Virus record (IMG/VR): IMGVR_UViG_3300010430_000425
Coordinates: 1 to 25,189 of that record
Direction: 5' to 3' (one strand)
Source: a virus
DNA length: 25,189 bases
Positions 10,900 to 22,324 of this stretch are shown in pieces. The position numbers were made by a program, and so were the translations under genes. Every line of letters begins with the position of its first letter. Within the stretch, counting starts at the first letter, position 1. The notes under the pieces were generated by a model. The model worked only from the letters and a program-made list of their open reading frames with translations, was not told the origin of the DNA and searched no databases.

Positions 10900-10950
10900 A
10901 CTTGCTTTTTGGATAGAGGTGTTCTATAATTATATTAAGAGGTGATTAAT
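10900..10950 (+). promoter_or_regulatory. Early sigma70 promoter cassette P2
   Basis: TTGCTT (10902-10907), 17 bp, TATAAT (10925-10930), then AAGAGGTGAT as SD. The 51-bp block is repeated at 12536-12586 with only two mismatches, so promoter, leader and ribosome-binding site were duplicated as one unit. The leader is very short, about 14 nt between predicted start and start codon. Confidence 0.85.
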
Positions 10951-11655: not shown

Positions 11656-11781
11656 ATGAGTGAAGATACAGAACAAGGTTTGAGCAACTTACAACTACTA
11701 CAAGAGAAATATGAATCAGAAATTGAAGTAGATTGTTATTTAGCAGAGTTATTAGCAGAGATTAAAGGAGAAGTAAAATGA
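11656..11781 (+). CDS. 41-aa acidic helical protein
   Basis: An ATG after GAGAGGTGG gives a short Leu/Glu-rich helix (LQLLQEKYESEIEVDCYLAE). It ends in an ATGA overlap with the ClpP-like gene, so the two are probably co-translated and the peptide could be an accessory to it; that link is inference. Confidence 0.5.
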   Translation: MSEDTEQGLSNLQLLQEKYESEIEVDCYLAELLAEIKGEVK

Positions 11782-12533
11782 AAAGTATAATTAGAAATAT
11801 AGTCTATGCTTTTATCTATGTATTTGGCGGAATATATGTAGCTATAAAAACTCTAGTACTTAGAGGTATATTTTATGGAACCTTATTTCTAGTCGGATGG
11901 TTACTAATAGTTAAATTTCTACCTGTTACACATACAGTAGATATCAAAGCTATTTCGCATGACCCTCATAGTTACGTACTTATATTATATGCTCAAGCAA
12001 TACTAGCAATTGCTGATGAAGATGATACAGTAATACTTAGAATATATAGTCCAGGAGGCTCAGTACTAATATGTGCTGATATAATTAACAGTATAAAAGA
12101 CTCGTTAGCACATACTATTAGTTATAACGAAGGTATTGCATATAGTGCAGGTGCTGTAATAGCAATGTCTACAGATGAAGTTAAATCAGCTTATATGTCT
12201 GAATACCTATTCCATAGACCTAGAATTATGATTATGGGAATGCCTGTATTAATTAGTGATGAGTTACCAACAGTACTTATGTTAAAAGAAATGATTCACA
12301 ACGATGTATTCCAATACTTAACTTTAATAGAACAGTATAGATATCAAGCATTAATGGATGATGTTATCGTTACAGGTAGACAGATAAGAGAAAGAACAGC
12401 TAAAGGTGGATTTACAGATGCTGAACGTTACCAACAATATGTTGAATTAGTTAAGTATTCAAATGATAACCCACCAAAGACTATACAACAGAAGTTAGAT
12501 GAAACACGTAGTAAGTCAAAAAAGAACAAATAA
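11778..12533 (+). CDS. Membrane-anchored ClpP/SppA-like serine protease
   Basis: A 251-residue protein. Two membrane spans (about 8-26 and 30-48) are followed by a ClpP/crotonase-fold domain. VILRIYSPGGSVLICADII (residues 85-103) matches the ClpP/SppA oxyanion strand and Gly-Gly turn. AYSAGAVIAM puts the likely nucleophile at Ser123, and LFHRP puts the likely general base at His146, a spacing close to that of ClpP. The C-terminal 100 residues are helical and basic. The order resembles SppA or NfeD-type membrane proteases more than soluble ClpP. The third catalytic acid is not certain. Possible roles are cleavage of host membrane proteins or partnering with the phage ClpX-like unfoldase at 21323. 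The start overlaps the upstream stop. Confidence 0.72.
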   Translation: MKSIIRNIVYAFIYVFGGIYVAIKTLVLRGIFYGTLFLVGWLLIVKFLPVTHTVDIKAISHDPHSYVLILYAQAILAIADEDDTVILRIYSPGGSVLICADIINSIKDSLAHTISYNEGIAYSAGAVIAMSTDEVKSAYMSEYLFHRPRIMIMGMPVLISDELPTVLMLKEMIHNDVFQYLTLIEQYRYQALMDDVIVTGRQIRERTAKGGFTDAERYQQYVELVKYSNDNPPKTIQQKLDETRSKSKKNK

Positions 12534-12535
12534 AG

Positions 12536-12586
12536 ACTTGCTTTTTGGATAAAGGTGTTCTATAATTATATTAAGAGGTGATAAAT
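12536..12586 (+). promoter_or_regulatory. Early sigma70 promoter cassette P3
   Basis: TTGCTT (12538-12543), 17 bp, TATAAT (12561-12566) and an AAGAGGTGAT SD. It is a near-exact copy of the block at 10900-10950 and drives the SbmA-like gene. Confidence 0.85.
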
Positions 12587-13429
12587 ATGAAAATAAAGAA
12601 TATAAAAAACTGCAAACCACTCTTAGTAGTTATAGGACTTATCCTTTTAGGAGAAAGTATATTTACAGGGCTTATACCTCACTCTAGAGGATACTTGTTC
12701 GGATTATTACAATCTCAAACAGGCCCTATATACTTGGCTTTAGGTGTATACTTGACTAATTACTTATGTTTAGATTTCTTTTGCGCTGTAAAAGGCTACG
12801 CTATAATTAAGACATCTTTACTATTTAGAACAGCTAGAACAGAAGAAACTATTAAGAAAGTTAAAGGAGAGGTAGAGAACACTCCTCAAAGAATTCAAGA
12901 AGATATCAAGTTAAGCTATGAAAGTAGGTTCATAGTATGGTCTGAGTACATAATATCAGGGATAATTGTTATACAATTGATAATTATTAACTTGTCTCAA
13001 CCAATATTAATCTTCGCGGCCTTGACATATGCTGGAATAAGTGTCATAATTGCATTAAGGTTTAACCCGAAGTTAACTAGAGCAGAAAAAGAAGTGCAGA
13101 GAACAGAAGCTACATATAGACACAGTCTTATAGACAGCTTAAGCTTAACATGCTTACCATTAGCTAACAAAGCTAACCTTATGGCAGCTAAGATAAGAAC
13201 GCACTACTTACTATTTACTAGACTTCAGTTAGGAGTTATGTCAGTATTACCATATGTTGTATTGATACCAAGCTTATTATCAGGAGATATAGATTTAGGA
13301 ACATTGGTTAAGCATCAGGCTACATTTGCATTAATAGTAGTAAACGCAAGTATATTAATACAGTTATATCCTAAGTTAGTTAAAGGTAGAGCATCAGAGG
13401 AAAGAGTAAGAGAGGTGGAAAATGATTAA
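12587..13429 (+). CDS. SbmA/BacA-like membrane protein (transporter domain)
   Basis: A 280-residue protein with about six hydrophobic segments (near 11-29, 47-66, 116-136, 138-157, 211-231 and 244-262). Between spans two and three is VENTPQRIQED (residues 96-106), matching the E-x-x-x-Q-R-[IV]-Q-E-D signature of SbmA/BacA and of ABCD-type transporter membrane domains. EVQRTEATYRHSL (169-181) matches the second family motif R-V-E-A-x-Y-R-x-x-L. E. coli SbmA is about 406 aa and imports peptide antibiotics such as microcins using the proton gradient. This version is shorter, and no nucleotide-binding domain is nearby. The start ATG 12587 has SD GAGGTGAT; the GTG at 12578 lies inside it. Its role in a phage is unknown; it could interfere with the host transporter or the envelope. 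Confidence 0.72.
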   Translation: MKIKNIKNCKPLLVVIGLILLGESIFTGLIPHSRGYLFGLLQSQTGPIYLALGVYLTNYLCLDFFCAVKGYAIIKTSLLFRTARTEETIKKVKGEVENTPQRIQEDIKLSYESRFIVWSEYIISGIIVIQLIIINLSQPILIFAALTYAGISVIIALRFNPKLTRAEKEVQRTEATYRHSLIDSLSLTCLPLANKANLMAAKIRTHYLLFTRLQLGVMSVLPYVVLIPSLLSGDIDLGTLVKHQATFALIVVNASILIQLYPKLVKGRASEERVREVEND

Positions 13430-17779: not shown

Positions 17780-18443
17780 AGAATTAAAACCTAAAGGTGA
17801 TGAAGAATGGTTAAAGCTAAGAGCTAAAGTTCTTACAGCTACTGATATGGGAGGAGTCTTAGGACTTAACCCTTGGCCGTCCGCCAGTATTAAGAACATA
17901 TTAGCTAATAAGAAACAGTATGTACCGTTTGAGAACGCTTATACTTACAATGGGATAACTTTAGAACCTAAAGTAGTTGACGATGTTAATAAAGTATTAG
18001 GAACTAACTTTAAGTTATTCGAGAATGGAACTAGAAGTTTCTTTGCAGATGTAGATTTTGGATTAGGAGCAACTCCAGATGCTGGAGAAGGTGATACCTT
18101 ACTAGAGTGTAAGACAACCAAGCCAGGTAATGCTTTAAAGTATTCATATCATCCACCTGCTTACTACTTAGGTCAATTGTACACTCAAATGTACTGTACA
18201 GGTAGACAGACAGGTTTATTAGCTATAACTTCTACCAACTTTACACAATATACTGAGGAACTTAACCTACCTATAAGTATATTTGAGATAAAAAGGTTTA
18301 AAGCAATGGACGATTTGATAGTCCAGGAAGTAACAAGGTTTTGGGAAACCCTTAAGATAGGGAAAATGTACAGAGTAAATCGTAAACAGGGACTTAATAT
18401 AGAGTTCATGCTTAGGTTTAAAACTAGAAGGATATACAAATGA
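17772..18443 (+). CDS. YqaJ/lambda-exo-type recombination exonuclease
   Basis: A 223-residue PD-(D/E)XK nuclease. LTATDMGGVLGLNPW (21-35) is the conserved family opening, GITLEP supplies Glu65, and GATPDAGEGDTLLECKTTK (99-117) carries the catalytic Asp103, Glu112 and Lys114. Such enzymes degrade one strand of dsDNA to expose ssDNA for annealing, and in T7-like phages the analogous gp6 also removes primers and host DNA. It is placed between polymerase and sigma factor. No Beta or RecT-type annealing partner was recognised in the window, though the SSB-like protein may serve. Confidence 0.85.
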   Translation: MFKELKPKGDEEWLKLRAKVLTATDMGGVLGLNPWPSASIKNILANKKQYVPFENAYTYNGITLEPKVVDDVNKVLGTNFKLFENGTRSFFADVDFGLGATPDAGEGDTLLECKTTKPGNALKYSYHPPAYYLGQLYTQMYCTGRQTGLLAITSTNFTQYTEELNLPISIFEIKRFKAMDDLIVQEVTRFWETLKIGKMYRVNRKQGLNIEFMLRFKTRRIYK

Positions 18444-18949
18444 AAAGTACTTGTGGAACATTATATGATGTAGAGAAATTCATTCAAGCTCAAGCAGCAC
18501 ACTGTAGAGCTCACCAATTCTTTGATAGAGATGAGATACAATCATTAGGTTACTTAGCTTATACAGAAGCTGAACAGAAAATAAACCCTGATAAGAGTAT
18601 CAATGAAAGGAAATCATTTTATAGGTACGCAATTAGAAGTATATTAACTAACGAGATTAAGAAGAAGATAACACATAGTAAAAAGATAATATATGTAGAT
18701 GATAGTGAAATAGCTAAATCTTTAGGTCAAGAACAGGAGTTAAAAACAGCTCCAGAACTACATGAGGTTTACAAGTTCATAGGCAATCTACCAGATAGGG
18801 GTCAAGAGATAATAAAAAGGAGGTACCTAAATTCCAAAGTAGAGACTTTAAATGAGATCGGACTGACTATGAACCTTTCAGGTGAAAGAGTTAGACAGAT
18901 TTGTAGACAGAACTTAGATGTTCTAAGGGAGTGTTTAGAGAATGGATAA
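18440..18949 (+). CDS. Phage sigma70-like transcription factor
   Basis: A 169-residue protein with two sigma domains. Region 2 is around residues 28-76 (DRDEIQSLGYLAYTEAEQ, then FYRYAIRSILTNEIKKK), matching the core-binding helix and the tail of region 2. Region 4 is around residues 113-166 (LPDRGQEIIKRRYL, then TLNEIGLTMNLSGERVRQIC), with the HTH signature S-x-E-R-V-R-Q-I. It lacks region 1 and a clear region 3, like ECF or sporulation-type sigmas. It probably redirects host RNA polymerase to middle or late promoters; its targets are not proven. ATGA overlap with the exonuclease gene. Confidence 0.88.
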   Translation: MKSTCGTLYDVEKFIQAQAAHCRAHQFFDRDEIQSLGYLAYTEAEQKINPDKSINERKSFYRYAIRSILTNEIKKKITHSKKIIYVDDSEIAKSLGQEQELKTAPELHEVYKFIGNLPDRGQEIIKRRYLNSKVETLNEIGLTMNLSGERVRQICRQNLDVLRECLENG

Positions 18950-19049
18950 GCCAAGTTGCAGATATTGCGAGATAATTCGCACATTAGGGGTTATATTAAT
19001 GGTTATAATCAACATTTCAACATTATTAGTAGTTTCGGGGGTATTATGA
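18942..19049 (+). CDS. 35-aa Cys-x-x-Cys membrane peptide
   Basis: An ATG inside the end of the sigma gene opens a short frame with SCRYCEII and one hydrophobic span (LGVILMVIINISTLLVV). It overlaps the next start in ATGA fashion. Its size makes it uncertain, but the double overlap fits the compact operon. Confidence 0.45.
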   Translation: MDKPSCRYCEIIRTLGVILMVIINISTLLVVSGVL

Positions 19050-19645
19050 GAAGAAGTAACACATGTTTAGCAGTGATAAGAGACGATAAAGGGACACTAT
19101 GGTTTGCAGGAGACAGAAGAATATCATGGCATTTCGGCAAAGCTCTTAAGTCACCTAGACCTAAGATAACTTACAGAAATAAAGTACTGTTAGCAGGTAC
19201 AGGTACTAGTTGTATATGCGATTTAGTAACTGATCAATTTGATATACCTATTAAAACAGATCAGCAAGATACTTTCAATTACATACATACAACATTCGTA
19301 CCTAAGCTAATTAAATGGTTAAGACAAGAAGGTTGGGTATCTGAAGGTGAACGTAAACTATCTACTTCTGACGACGACGGTAAATCTGAATTAGGTGCTA
19401 CAATATTAATAGGTGTAGAGTCAGACTTATATGAACTAGATATAGATACTAACATGATATGTGCAGATGTTATAGATGCTCCTTATGCTGCAGGTTGTGG
19501 TGGTGCTCTAGCGCATGGTTCGCTCCTTACTACAGAAAGCTTAGACTACTCTCCTAAGAAGAGACTGACTATAGCTTTAAAGGTAGCAGCCAAAGTGTCA
19601 CCTGGTTGTGATGACAACGTAGATATCTTAAACAATAGGAAGTAA
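19046..19645 (+). CDS. HslV/proteasome-like Ntn-hydrolase peptidase
   Basis: A 199-residue protein. After a five-residue leader (MRRSN) comes Thr6, the expected catalytic N-terminal threonine after processing. Asp23 in FAGDRRIS and Lys40 in RPKITYR fall at relative positions 18 and 35, near the proteasome/HslV Asp17 and Lys33. LLAGTGTS follows the Lys. The C-terminal half has LGATILIGVESDLYELD, YAAGCGGALAHGSLL and ALKVAAKVSPGCDDNVDIL, matching the HslV pattern of I-G-S-G-G and the final helix pair. Host HslV is a double hexamer fed by HslU. The start ATG 19046 follows GGGGG by five bases. A partner may be the ClpX-like ATPase at 21323; that is inference. Confidence 0.78.
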   Translation: MRRSNTCLAVIRDDKGTLWFAGDRRISWHFGKALKSPRPKITYRNKVLLAGTGTSCICDLVTDQFDIPIKTDQQDTFNYIHTTFVPKLIKWLRQEGWVSEGERKLSTSDDDGKSELGATILIGVESDLYELDIDTNMICADVIDAPYAAGCGGALAHGSLLTTESLDYSPKKRLTIALKVAAKVSPGCDDNVDILNNRK

Positions 19646-19647
19646 AT

Positions 19648-19806
19648 ATGAAAACATTAATGCTAGACTTATTTTTAATACTTGTAGACATCGTTAGAAT
19701 GATAGCTCTAGCTGTAATGTATACTGCAGCTTGTTCGATATACTTAGTATTTTGTTTACTATCTGCAATCATAGCTTTCTTGGATAGGAGAAAACTTGAC
19801 AAATAG
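19648..19806 (+). CDS. 52-aa membrane protein
   Basis: The start has SD AGGAAG. The sequence is hydrophobic nearly throughout (LFLILVDIVRMIALAV and SIYLVFCLLSAIIAFL), with a basic end (DRRKLDK), suggesting one or two spans. It lies between the peptidase and RusA. Unrecognised. Confidence 0.55.
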   Translation: MKTLMLDLFLILVDIVRMIALAVMYTAACSIYLVFCLLSAIIAFLDRRKLDK

Positions 19807-19824
19807 GAGAAGGTGTACTAAAAT
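19796..19824 (+). promoter_or_regulatory. Internal sigma70-like promoter before RusA
   Basis: TTGACA (19796-19801), 17 bp, TAAAAT (19819-19824). The -10 box overlaps the RusA start codon, so transcription would begin inside RusA and serve downstream genes only. Chance is possible. Confidence 0.4.
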
Positions 19825-20182
19825 GATATTAGAGACGTTTGAATTACCTTGGCCACCCAGTGCTAATCACTACTGGTTTATAGTGGCCTGTAAAGGTGGA
19901 GGCAGAAAAGTTATAGGAAAGAAAGGTAAGGACTTTAGGAAGGGAGTTCAGGAGCTTATAGGAGACAGGATACCGCTGGAAGGAAGACTTAAGGTAGAGA
20001 TAGAGGTATATCCTCCAGACAGGCGTAAAAGAGACTTAGATAACGTATTGAAGGCTACATTAGATGCCTTAGAAGATGCAAAGGTTTATTTAGATGATAA
20101 TCAGATAGACTGTTTAATAGTTAATAGAAGAGAAGTTGTTAAAGGTGGAAAGATGGAGGTGAAGATATATGAAATTAAATGA
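19823..20182 (+). CDS. rusA: RusA-family Holliday junction resolvase
   Basis: A 119-residue protein with the family hallmarks: PPSANHYW near the N-terminus, PPDRRKRDLDNVLKATLDAL (64-83) with Asp71 and Asp73, and VYLDDNQID (88-96) with Asp91 and Asp92. RusA dimers cut four-way junctions, and in phages they can debranch replicating DNA before packaging. Length is typical (E. coli RusA 120 aa). The chosen ATG is preceded by GGAGAAGGTG; an upstream in-frame start at 19796 overlaps the previous gene. Confidence 0.9.
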   Translation: MILETFELPWPPSANHYWFIVACKGGGRKVIGKKGKDFRKGVQELIGDRIPLEGRLKVEIEVYPPDRRKRDLDNVLKATLDALEDAKVYLDDNQIDCLIVNRREVVKGGKMEVKIYEIK

Positions 20183-20564
20183 AGACTTACAATGTGCTGT
20201 ATACTATATAGCTAAAATGTATAATCGTATATTCGATATGACCCCTATGTTCGCCTATAACGAGGAAGACGATGAGCTGATCTACAGCCGTATGGAATAT
20301 TGGGCATCTACTGAGTTAGAGTTAGAGTTTATGTGCAAATTAGTAATTAAATGTATAGAGAAGTTCCCTGAGTCTGCTGAATATATAGTGCAAGACTTAC
20401 TAAGGAACATTAATAAAAGAGGATCTGTGTCTATCGAGCTAGCTTGGCAGCATGGGTATTTAACTAAAGCAATGGAAAGTAGCTGTGAAGAAGATTGCTA
20501 TGAACTACAACTACTAACAGATTATAGTTTAACAGGAAGTTTAATAGGAGAGGATGATGAGTAA
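20169..20564 (+). CDS. 131-aa hypothetical protein
   Basis: The start ATG 20169 has GGAGGTGAAG upstream, inside the end of RusA (14-bp overlap). The product is acidic and helical, with clusters YNEEDDELIY and SSCEEDCYELQ, and no recognised domain. It is positioned between two nucleases and overlaps the next gene, so it is likely part of the replication/recombination operon. Confidence 0.55.
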   Translation: MKLNEDLQCAVYYIAKMYNRIFDMTPMFAYNEEDDELIYSRMEYWASTELELEFMCKLVIKCIEKFPESAEYIVQDLLRNINKRGSVSIELAWQHGYLTKAMESSCEEDCYELQLLTDYSLTGSLIGEDDE

Positions 20565-21321
20565 ACCAAAAATACTATTTTACGATATAGAGACAACACC
20601 ACTACAAGCGTGGATATGGCGCCCTGGTAAACAAGTAGTAAGGCCTGCTCAGTTAGTAGAAGGGTACACTAGAAATGATATTATATGTATATCTTACGAG
20701 TGGTTACACACTAATGAGAAGGGTACACTACATTGGGGTTATGAGAAACAGAACTCTAAACAAATGGTTAAAGACTTTACCAAGATTTGCCATGAAGCAG
20801 ATTTAATAATTGGTAAGAACAATAAGAGATTCGATGATAAACATCTTAACTCAGCTAGGTTATGGCACGGTTTAGCAGGTGCTCCTGACCTTTTAAGTAA
20901 GGTAGATGATCTAGAGACTCAAATGAGAAGACACTTTGCTTTAGCCTCATATGGCCTTGATTACTTCTCTGAAGAATTAGGCTTTGGTGGTAAAACTAAG
21001 ATGTGCTTTGACGATTGGATAAATATAGTCTATACTAAAGGTAAGGCCTCTTATAATAAGATGCTAAAATATTGTGCTAAAGATGTACATGATACTAAAT
21101 TGATATGGAAGCATTGCGAAAAGCATTTCCAACCTAAGTTTAACTACTCCACATTTAGTGGTAACATGGTTTGTAAAGTGTGCGGTAGTAAGAACATTCG
21201 CAAGAACGGAACTAGGACAAGTACTTCAGGGATGGTGTCTCAGAATTATTTCTGTACTGACCATAACGGTTATGCAGGGAAACTTAATTTGAATGCCCGT
21301 AAGCCGGTGCTTAGGAGTTAA
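20557..21321 (+). CDS. DnaQ-like 3'-5' exonuclease with C-terminal zinc ribbon
   Basis: A 254-residue RNase H-fold exonuclease. ILFYDIETTP (6-15) supplies Asp10 and Glu12, a middle LIIGKNNKRFDDK segment gives the second motif, and YCAKDVHDTKLI the last acidic motif. After about residue 205, MVCKVCGSKNIRKNGTRT and NYFCTDHNG form a zinc-ribbon-like end like those of transposon and IS proteins (C-x2-C plus C/H). This could bind DNA or RNA. As the polymerase at 14888 already has an exonuclease domain, this one may act in repair or in mRNA or host DNA turnover. The start is ATG 20557, with AGGAG six bases upstream. Confidence 0.8.
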   Translation: MSKPKILFYDIETTPLQAWIWRPGKQVVRPAQLVEGYTRNDIICISYEWLHTNEKGTLHWGYEKQNSKQMVKDFTKICHEADLIIGKNNKRFDDKHLNSARLWHGLAGAPDLLSKVDDLETQMRRHFALASYGLDYFSEELGFGGKTKMCFDDWINIVYTKGKASYNKMLKYCAKDVHDTKLIWKHCEKHFQPKFNYSTFSGNMVCKVCGSKNIRKNGTRTSTSGMVSQNYFCTDHNGYAGKLNLNARKPVLRS

Positions 21322-21322
21322 T

Positions 21323-22324
21323 ATGATAAACGTAGACTTAATAAAGAGGAGTATATCGCCTAAAAAGATATATGACGAGATGAACAAGACTATAGTAGGT
21401 CAGCATAAAGCTAAAAAGCTAGTAGCCAATGCAGTGTTCCTACACATAGTTAGGTTCTTTCAAGCTCAAGATCAAAATAGGAACGACCTTAAAAAGTCTA
21501 ACGTACTATTGATGGGTCCTACAGGCTGTGGTAAAACCTTAATGGTTAGAGAAGCTGCAAGAGCCGTTAATACAATACTAAAGTTAAAAGGCTTATGCCC
21601 AGTCGCTGAGATAGATTGTACATCTATAACTCCAGAAGGCTGGTCAGGAGACGACTTAAGTGATATGTTAGAAGAACATGTTCTAGATATAAAGTCTAAA
21701 GACCCATCAGCTACTGCTGGTTCTACAATAGTCTTCTTAGATGAGTTCGATAAGTTATGTAAACCTGCTATAGGAAGTGGTGGAACTGATCATAATAAGA
21801 ATACTCAATATAGTTTACTTAAGATAGCTGAAGGTAAGAAGATAATAGGTAAGAAGATAGACTTTCATACTGATAACTACTTATTCATATTAGGTGGTAA
21901 CTTCTCAGAGATAAGAGATATGAGAGCTGAAAGGAAAGCAAATAAGTTCATAGGATTTAACGAACCTAAAGTTAAGAAAGAGTATATAGATTACCACGTA
22001 GAACTTGAGAAGTTAGGTATGTCTACTCAAATGATAGGACGTACACCTTATGTAGGTGAGTTAGACCAATTGAACGCTAAGGAACTTTTAACTATATTAG
22101 ATATGCACTTGATCCCTGAGTACCAAGATACTTGGAATTACTTAGAGAAAGGTGAGATCATAGTTCCTACTAAAGCGCGTAATAAAATGGTTAAGCAGTG
22201 TATTGCTAGAAAGACTGGAGCTAGAGGGTTACAAACCGATATGGCTAACTTTGTAGAAGACACTATATTTGATACTGAATTTAACTTAAATGCGAGGCGT
22301 GAAGATGACATTAAAAAGATATAG
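21323..22324 (+). CDS. ClpX-like AAA+ unfoldase with IGF loop, no zinc domain
   Basis: A 333-residue AAA+ protein aligned by eye to ClpX. It has KIYDEMNKTIVGQHKAKKLV, Walker A GPTGCGKT (65-72), a pore loop GWSG (106-109; ClpX GYVG), Walker B FLDEFD (138-143), YSLLKIAEGKKI, a sensor segment FILGGN (188-193), IGF (210-212) in KFIGFNEPKV, the Arg finger region MIGRTP (237-242) and sensor 2 ARKTGARGL (295-303). The N-terminal zinc-binding domain of ClpX is absent, and there is no HslU-type I-domain between the Walker motifs. IGF is the loop that docks ClpX onto ClpP. It should unfold proteins; its partner may be host ClpP or a phage peptidase. The start ATG 21323 follows GGAG. Confidence 0.88.
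   Translation: MINVDLIKRSISPKKIYDEMNKTIVGQHKAKKLVANAVFLHIVRFFQAQDQNRNDLKKSNVLLMGPTGCGKTLMVREAARAVNTILKLKGLCPVAEIDCTSITPEGWSGDDLSDMLEEHVLDIKSKDPSATAGSTIVFLDEFDKLCKPAIGSGGTDHNKNTQYSLLKIAEGKKIIGKKIDFHTDNYLFILGGNFSEIRDMRAERKANKFIGFNEPKVKKEYIDYHVELEKLGMSTQMIGRTPYVGELDQLNAKELLTILDMHLIPEYQDTWNYLEKGEIIVPTKARNKMVKQCIARKTGARGLQTDMANFVEDTIFDTEFNLNARREDDIKKI

Follow-up and report, generated by a model that had tools for sequence, protein, structure and literature searches.

Can a bacteriophage encode a proteasome-type peptidase chamber and, if so, which motor would feed it? Phages and bacteria encode proteasome-like proteins that belong neither to HslV nor to the proteasome; to our knowledge none of these has a recognized AAA+ partner, and few have an assigned function. 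The question is raised by a 25-kb fragment, the uncultivated bacterial virus record IMGVR_UViG_3300010430_000425 of IMG/VR, whose 25,189 bases together form the window analyzed here. Terminase, head-tail adaptor, holin, endolysin and replication genes mark the window as phage DNA. A megablast search of the window against sequenced phages gives no match and reveals no near relative, and a search of genome contigs with an alignment of the peptidase clade found no relative, so no host or prophage is assigned. A preliminary description had proposed that the phage encodes an HslV-type peptidase, that a ClpX-like gene lies 1.7 kb away in the same operon, and that the two might form an unusual mixed machine, no HslU being present. 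HslU is indeed not seen within the window, a 25-kb fragment.

The candidate peptidase, P0001, has an open reading frame and begins MRRSN-TCLAVIRDDKGTLWFAGDRRISW... (Table 1). Its ATG start is supported by the ATGA overlap with the stop of the short upstream ORF, and ATG, GTG and TTG codons are absent between M1 and Thr6. Since no start codon abuts Thr6 and the upstream ATG is supported, the five-residue leader would have to come off to expose this residue. Leaders of 5-7 residues are present in five of the six members of the peptidase clade; in the sixth (L012), as in the wider phage relatives, Thr directly follows the start. Glycine before the threonine is a canonical feature of proteasome cleavage sites. 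The leader of the G018 peptidase (L115 11935-12627, minus strand) is MAIKSG, with Gly before Thr, and this gene lies directly downstream of one for a lipoprotein-type ClpP-like protein. The assignment of Thr6, Asp23 and Lys40 to the proteasomal Thr1, Asp17 and Lys33, made in the preliminary description, holds: the three residues are kept across the clade and the wider phage relatives, the Thr of L115 lying one column off in the alignment. Divergence between orthologues by codon position (0.36/0.24/0.49) fits a coding gene under selection.

Table 1. Features of the window and of related contigs (window coordinates unless a contig is named).
Feature	Position	Strand	Remarks
ClpP-like serine protease P0003, hydrophobic N-terminus	11778..12533	+	Pfam Clp protease E 1e-8; context
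SbmA/BacA-like membrane protein	12578..13429	+	PF05992 E 9e-8, over its cut-off; context
sigma-70 region 4 protein	18440..18949	+	just upstream of peptidase; sigma-peptidase order also in L007, L012
35-aa ORF (CxxC and one hydrophobic stretch)	18942..19049	+	TGA stop overlaps peptidase ATG
proteasome-like (HslV/BPH-group) threonine peptidase P0001, 199 aa	19046..19645	+	phrog_1040; AlphaFold2 model; structure matches
5-residue leader MRRSN	19046..19060	+	precedes nucleophile Thr6
Thr6 = catalytic Thr1	19061..19063	+	superposes on residue 1 of HslV; conserved
Asp23 = proteasomal Asp17	19112..19114	+	invariant in 10 sequences
Lys40 = proteasomal Lys33	19163..19165	+	invariant in 10 sequences
long acidic pore loop, residues 95-117	19328..19396	+	between helix 2 and next strand; 23 residues: 7 acidic, 3 basic
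RusA-like resolvase	19796..20182	+	between peptidase and ClpX-like genes
DnaQ/RNase H-like exonuclease	20554..21321	+	between peptidase and ClpX-like genes
ClpX-type AAA+ unfoldase core P0002, without N-terminal zinc domain	21293..22324	+	ClpX chains E 2.5e-31; AlphaFold2 model
pore-1 loop GWSG of P0002 (ClpX: GYVG)	21638..21649	+	alignment
IGF motif of P0002	21950..21958	+	at position of ClpX's ClpP-docking IGF loop
further ClpP-like genes	L007 7693-8322; L038 about 1391-2014; L121 4922-5599; L115 12638-13405 (-)
further SbmA/BacA-like genes	L038 2008-2844; L121 6181-7035; L115 10027-10866 (-)
M17 leucyl aminopeptidase genes	L016 11830-12711 and 12715-13317; L012 1032-1937		L016: followed by a zincin-like metallopeptidase gene

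The family of P0001 is recognized through phage profiles and through its predicted fold. In PHROGs its sole clear match is phrog_1040 ("peptidase HslV family", E 1e-11), a broad phage family that is the best family match of all clade members. Searched alone against Pfam, NCBIfam and, with phmmer, the PDB, P0001 gives no match, being missed by HslV-specific and general proteasome models, while a PDB search with a profile of five close relatives returns eight chains, all of the proteasome family and all weak (E 0.055-1.5), in the order Betaproteobacteria proteasome homologue (BPH), HslV and a beta subunit. An AlphaFold2 model of P0001, built on an alignment of five close relatives (pLDDT 85.1, pTM 0.83), has 490 Foldseek matches in the PDB at E<=0.001; the best 50 of the 490 are all HslV, BPH or 20S beta chains (best E 1.6e-9). 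Among the matches listed, the query TM is highest for T. denitrificans BPH (0.70-0.71) and is about 0.60-0.64 for most HslV chains. A structural aligner gives Z 17-18 over 163-174 residues to HslV, BPH and 20S beta, and places residue 6 on HslV Thr1 (Z 18). Helices 55-64 and 76-94 are both present in the model, and the second is followed by a long acidic loop at the pore. The corresponding loop spans 14-27 residues within the clade; its acidic character is seen in three members (the window, L007 and L012) but not in L010. BPH likewise has a long acidic pore loop, together with heptameric rings and no known unfoldase (PMC5777263). In a peptidase tree the clade is split from five wider phage relatives with support of 100/100.

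Thus P0001 is almost certainly a proteasome-type Ntn threonine peptidase encoded by a phage, as first described, and a fold other than the Ntn sandwich is not seen. The narrower label fares less well: because HslV-specific models fail and the pore loop is BPH-like, "HslV" is too narrow a name, and P0001 is best described as representing a new branch within the HslV/BPH group.

The possible partner, P0002, is encoded on the same strand 1.65 kb downstream, within the same gene run. Its likelier start is an alternative ATG at 21323, which directly follows the stop of the exonuclease gene. Its AlphaFold2 model superposes on ClpX with Z 27.7 and on HslU with Z 24.0, and it scores 161 bits against the curated ClpX model (cut-off 359). 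The Walker A and B motifs, an aromatic pore loop, the arginine finger and the sensor-2 residues are all retained; judged by these residues, P0002 should be an active AAA+ motor. The two known machines dock differently, ClpX onto ClpP through its IGF loop and HslU onto HslV through its C-terminal tail. When seven ClpX-like proteins are aligned with E. coli ClpX and E. coli HslU, [ILM]GF stands at the IGF-loop position in all seven and is absent from E. coli HslU, while neither the HslU I-domain nor its C-terminal docking tail is found in any of the seven. Most ClpX-like proteins of phages that lack the peptidase also have an IGF-type motif. The C-terminus of P0002, REDDIKKI, was considered as an HslU-like tail (EDLSRFIL) and rejected: by eye it aligns with the end of the ClpX small domain, and it is not found in L012-L014.

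Do the two genes travel together? Scans of viral contigs with the single proteins P0001 and P0002 found nothing, and six remote homologues, once aligned, showed no segment of sufficient conservation for scanning; relatives were obtained from scans of 2.9 million viral contigs and from searches of whole records. The peptidase clade comprises six contigs: the window, L007 (3300029183_000039), L011/L012 (a pair with matching sequences, counted once), L016 (3300011445_000036), L010/G002 (3300002460_000047) and G018. Peptidases in G016 and in the ClpX-carrying jumbo records G009, G020, G022 and G058 are distant and lie outside this count. A ClpX-type AAA+ gene is present in five of the six, so the co-occurrence that the preliminary description wished to see checked is found in close relatives; the exception, G002 (48 kb), carries the peptidase and lacks ClpX. 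Among 13 wider relatives in sequenced phage genomes there is no ClpX-type gene, only P-loop fragments of 15-19 bits. The difference (Fisher p 5e-4) is descriptive, as the contigs share ancestry. When 62 ClpX-like proteins are placed in a tree, the window copy groups with those of L007, L012, L013, L014 and L016 (99/71; 100/87 without L016). The peptidase is found in all four members of this ZBD-less ClpX clade that have enough flanking sequence, the contigs of L013 and L014 ending before its expected place. A test of a common ClpX clade including G018 gives p-AU 0.22, a value that neither places the ClpX of G018 in the clade nor sets it apart. Few other ClpX-carrying records have the peptidase family.

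Gene order adds to this picture. In L016 the ClpX gene runs on to 10954, past the start of the peptidase gene at 10917, which gives a 38-base overlap. The order YqaJ-sigma-peptidase-RusA-exonuclease-ClpX is common to three contigs (the window, L007 and L012). Peptidase and ClpX-like genes are not neighbors in the window, where both belong to a general replication gene run, and in G018 they are far apart. Taken together, the co-occurrence pattern supports a functional link between peptidase and ClpX-like protein. The sigma-70-type gene that precedes the peptidase in the window (18440-19645), L007 and L012 is a separate observation; judging from gene order, a link between the protease and a transcription switch is possible.

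Other proteolytic and transport genes accompany the pair. A membrane-anchored ClpP-like gene in the window, which the preliminary description did not mention, encodes P0003, which in NCBIfam is matched best by models for head-maturation protease and SppA, not by ClpP. All five contigs that carry both peptidase and ClpX encode ClpP-like proteins whose N-termini bear hydrophobic or lipoprotein-type segments. Because of these hydrophobic or signal-type N-termini the proteins are probably exported, which would place their ClpP-like catalytic domain outside the cytosol; of the phage-encoded chambers found, only the proteasome homologue would then be cytosolic. An SbmA/BacA-like protein of the peptide-transporter type is encoded by four of the same five phages and by none of the 13 wider relatives; a literature search for phage SbmA/BacA found no report. 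In L016 the ClpX and peptidase genes are closely followed by an M17 leucyl aminopeptidase gene and then by one for a zincin-like metallopeptidase. The ClpP-like, SbmA/BacA-like and M17 proteins suggest a phage set for protein or peptide salvage. Different neighbors are seen elsewhere. L092 has a ClpX-like gene near the ZBD-less clade and a soluble ClpP-like protein, without the peptidase, possibly an alternative partner arrangement. In Vibrio phage phiTY18 (L006 7998-9534) the proteasome homologue adjoins an S49 (SppA/SohB-like) peptidase, and in several unrelated phages (L004, L130, L137) its neighborhood includes a gene for thymidylate synthase, dihydrofolate reductase or ribonucleotide reductase.

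In the mechanism proposed here, the P0001 chain would be made with its leader, the removal of which would expose Thr6 as the N-terminal nucleophile. The subunits would then assemble into a closed ring chamber that would cut polypeptides during infection, and its substrates would most likely be unfolded and threaded in by the ClpX-type AAA+ hexamer. That the leader is cut off, that rings form, that the peptidase is active and that it physically pairs with the ClpX-like protein are all inferred; the proposal as a whole, an active chamber including this pairing, has somewhat less than an even chance of being right. A mixed machine built from parts of two known machines is plausible, and there are hints of one. 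However, an HslV-like ring joined to ClpX, in the form first put forward, is not borne out. The ClpX-like proteins keep the ClpP-docking [ILM]GF and are without the HslU tail and I-domain, G002 has the peptidase without ClpX, the pore loop in the window, L007 and L012 resembles that of BPH, for which no unfoldase is known (PMC5777263), and the two genes lie apart in the window and in G018. Since BPH rings are heptameric, the evidence for and against could be brought together if IGF-type loops docked on a proteasome ring of seven subunits; this speculation, a BPH-like and possibly heptameric ring fed by a ClpX-type hexamer through IGF-type loops, is on the unlikely side.

Much of the same evidence suits an arrangement that is nearly as likely as pairing, though itself doubtful, in which the ClpX-like protein redirects host ClpP via its IGF loop while the peptidase works alone like BPH, with no unfoldase, on unfolded proteins or specific substrates. 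The IGF-type motif in seven of seven ClpX-like proteins and in most of those from phages without the peptidase, the acidic pore loop, the 13 wider relatives that do without ClpX, the lone peptidase of G002 and the lack of an AAA+ partner for such homologues in Fuchs 2021 all favor it, but it leaves unexplained both the concentration of ClpX in the clade (5/6 versus 0/13) and the gene overlap in L016. Feeding of the phage peptidase by host HslU is improbable: the HslV-group fold and the wider relatives without a phage-encoded ClpX-type partner would fit, but the pore loop resembles that of BPH, an AAA+ protein is already encoded by the phage itself, and sequence alignment with E. coli HslV was too poor for the positions that contact HslU to be assigned. 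Alternatively, the ClpX-like protein could pair with the phage's own ClpP-like protein, the proteasome homologue being unrelated to both. A ClpP-like gene is indeed present in all five contigs with peptidase and ClpX, and L092 combines ClpX with a soluble ClpP-like protein; the exported-type N-termini in the five contigs and the head-maturation/SppA character of P0003 make this very improbable. Finally, the fold could be kept in a non-degradative protein, such as a processing enzyme, a ligase (as connectase) or a regulator. The family does contain non-proteases and leaders vary, but Thr, Asp and Lys are kept everywhere and the model has no connectase-type insertion, so that this reading is the most improbable of all.

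Since the peptidase of this clade is accompanied by a ClpX-type motor, the questions of partner and function can both be put to just two small proteins. Should the pairing be real, a ClpX-type motor is joined to a proteasome-type chamber, and motor and chamber families would be recombinable; if docking in addition runs through IGF-type loops on a possibly heptameric ring, the proteasome-type chamber would carry an interface of the ClpXP style, and a phage proteasome homologue would for the first time have an AAA+ partner. Otherwise, the gene pair still indicates a phage equipped with proteolysis genes of its own.

How does this pair compare with known systems? BPH assembles as a tetradecamer and HslV as a dodecameric double hexamer. 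BPH shares with P0001 the Ntn fold, the Thr nucleophile with Asp and Lys, and the long acidic pore loop after helix 2, but it has no leader and no known AAA+ partner, whereas five of six clade members have leaders and a ClpX-like gene co-occurs. HslV resembles P0001 in fold (Z up to 18), catalytic residues, size and group; it differs in its shorter pore loop, and P0001 misses the HslV models and has a ClpX-type AAA+ companion, with no HslU seen. That companion is like ClpX in its core fold, IGF-type motif, aromatic pore loop, arginine finger and sensor 2, and unlike it in the missing zinc domain, a C-terminus shortened in most members, and GWxG instead of GYVG. With HslU it shares a related AAA+ core (Z about 24), but it is without the I-domain and the HslV-docking C-terminal tail. 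Connectase, a ligase, exemplifies the non-proteases of the proteasome-like family (PMC8665760); its two-helix insertion falls between early strands, where the P0001 model has no long insertion. The phage proteasome homologues PPH and AAH, already described without a co-occurring AAA+ partner (Fuchs 2021, PMC8665760), are, like P0001, phage-encoded group I proteasome-like proteins. PPH has about 140 residues and no helix 2, whereas P0001 has 199 and both helix pairs; the aspect that looks new here is the ClpX-like partner of a phage proteasome homologue.
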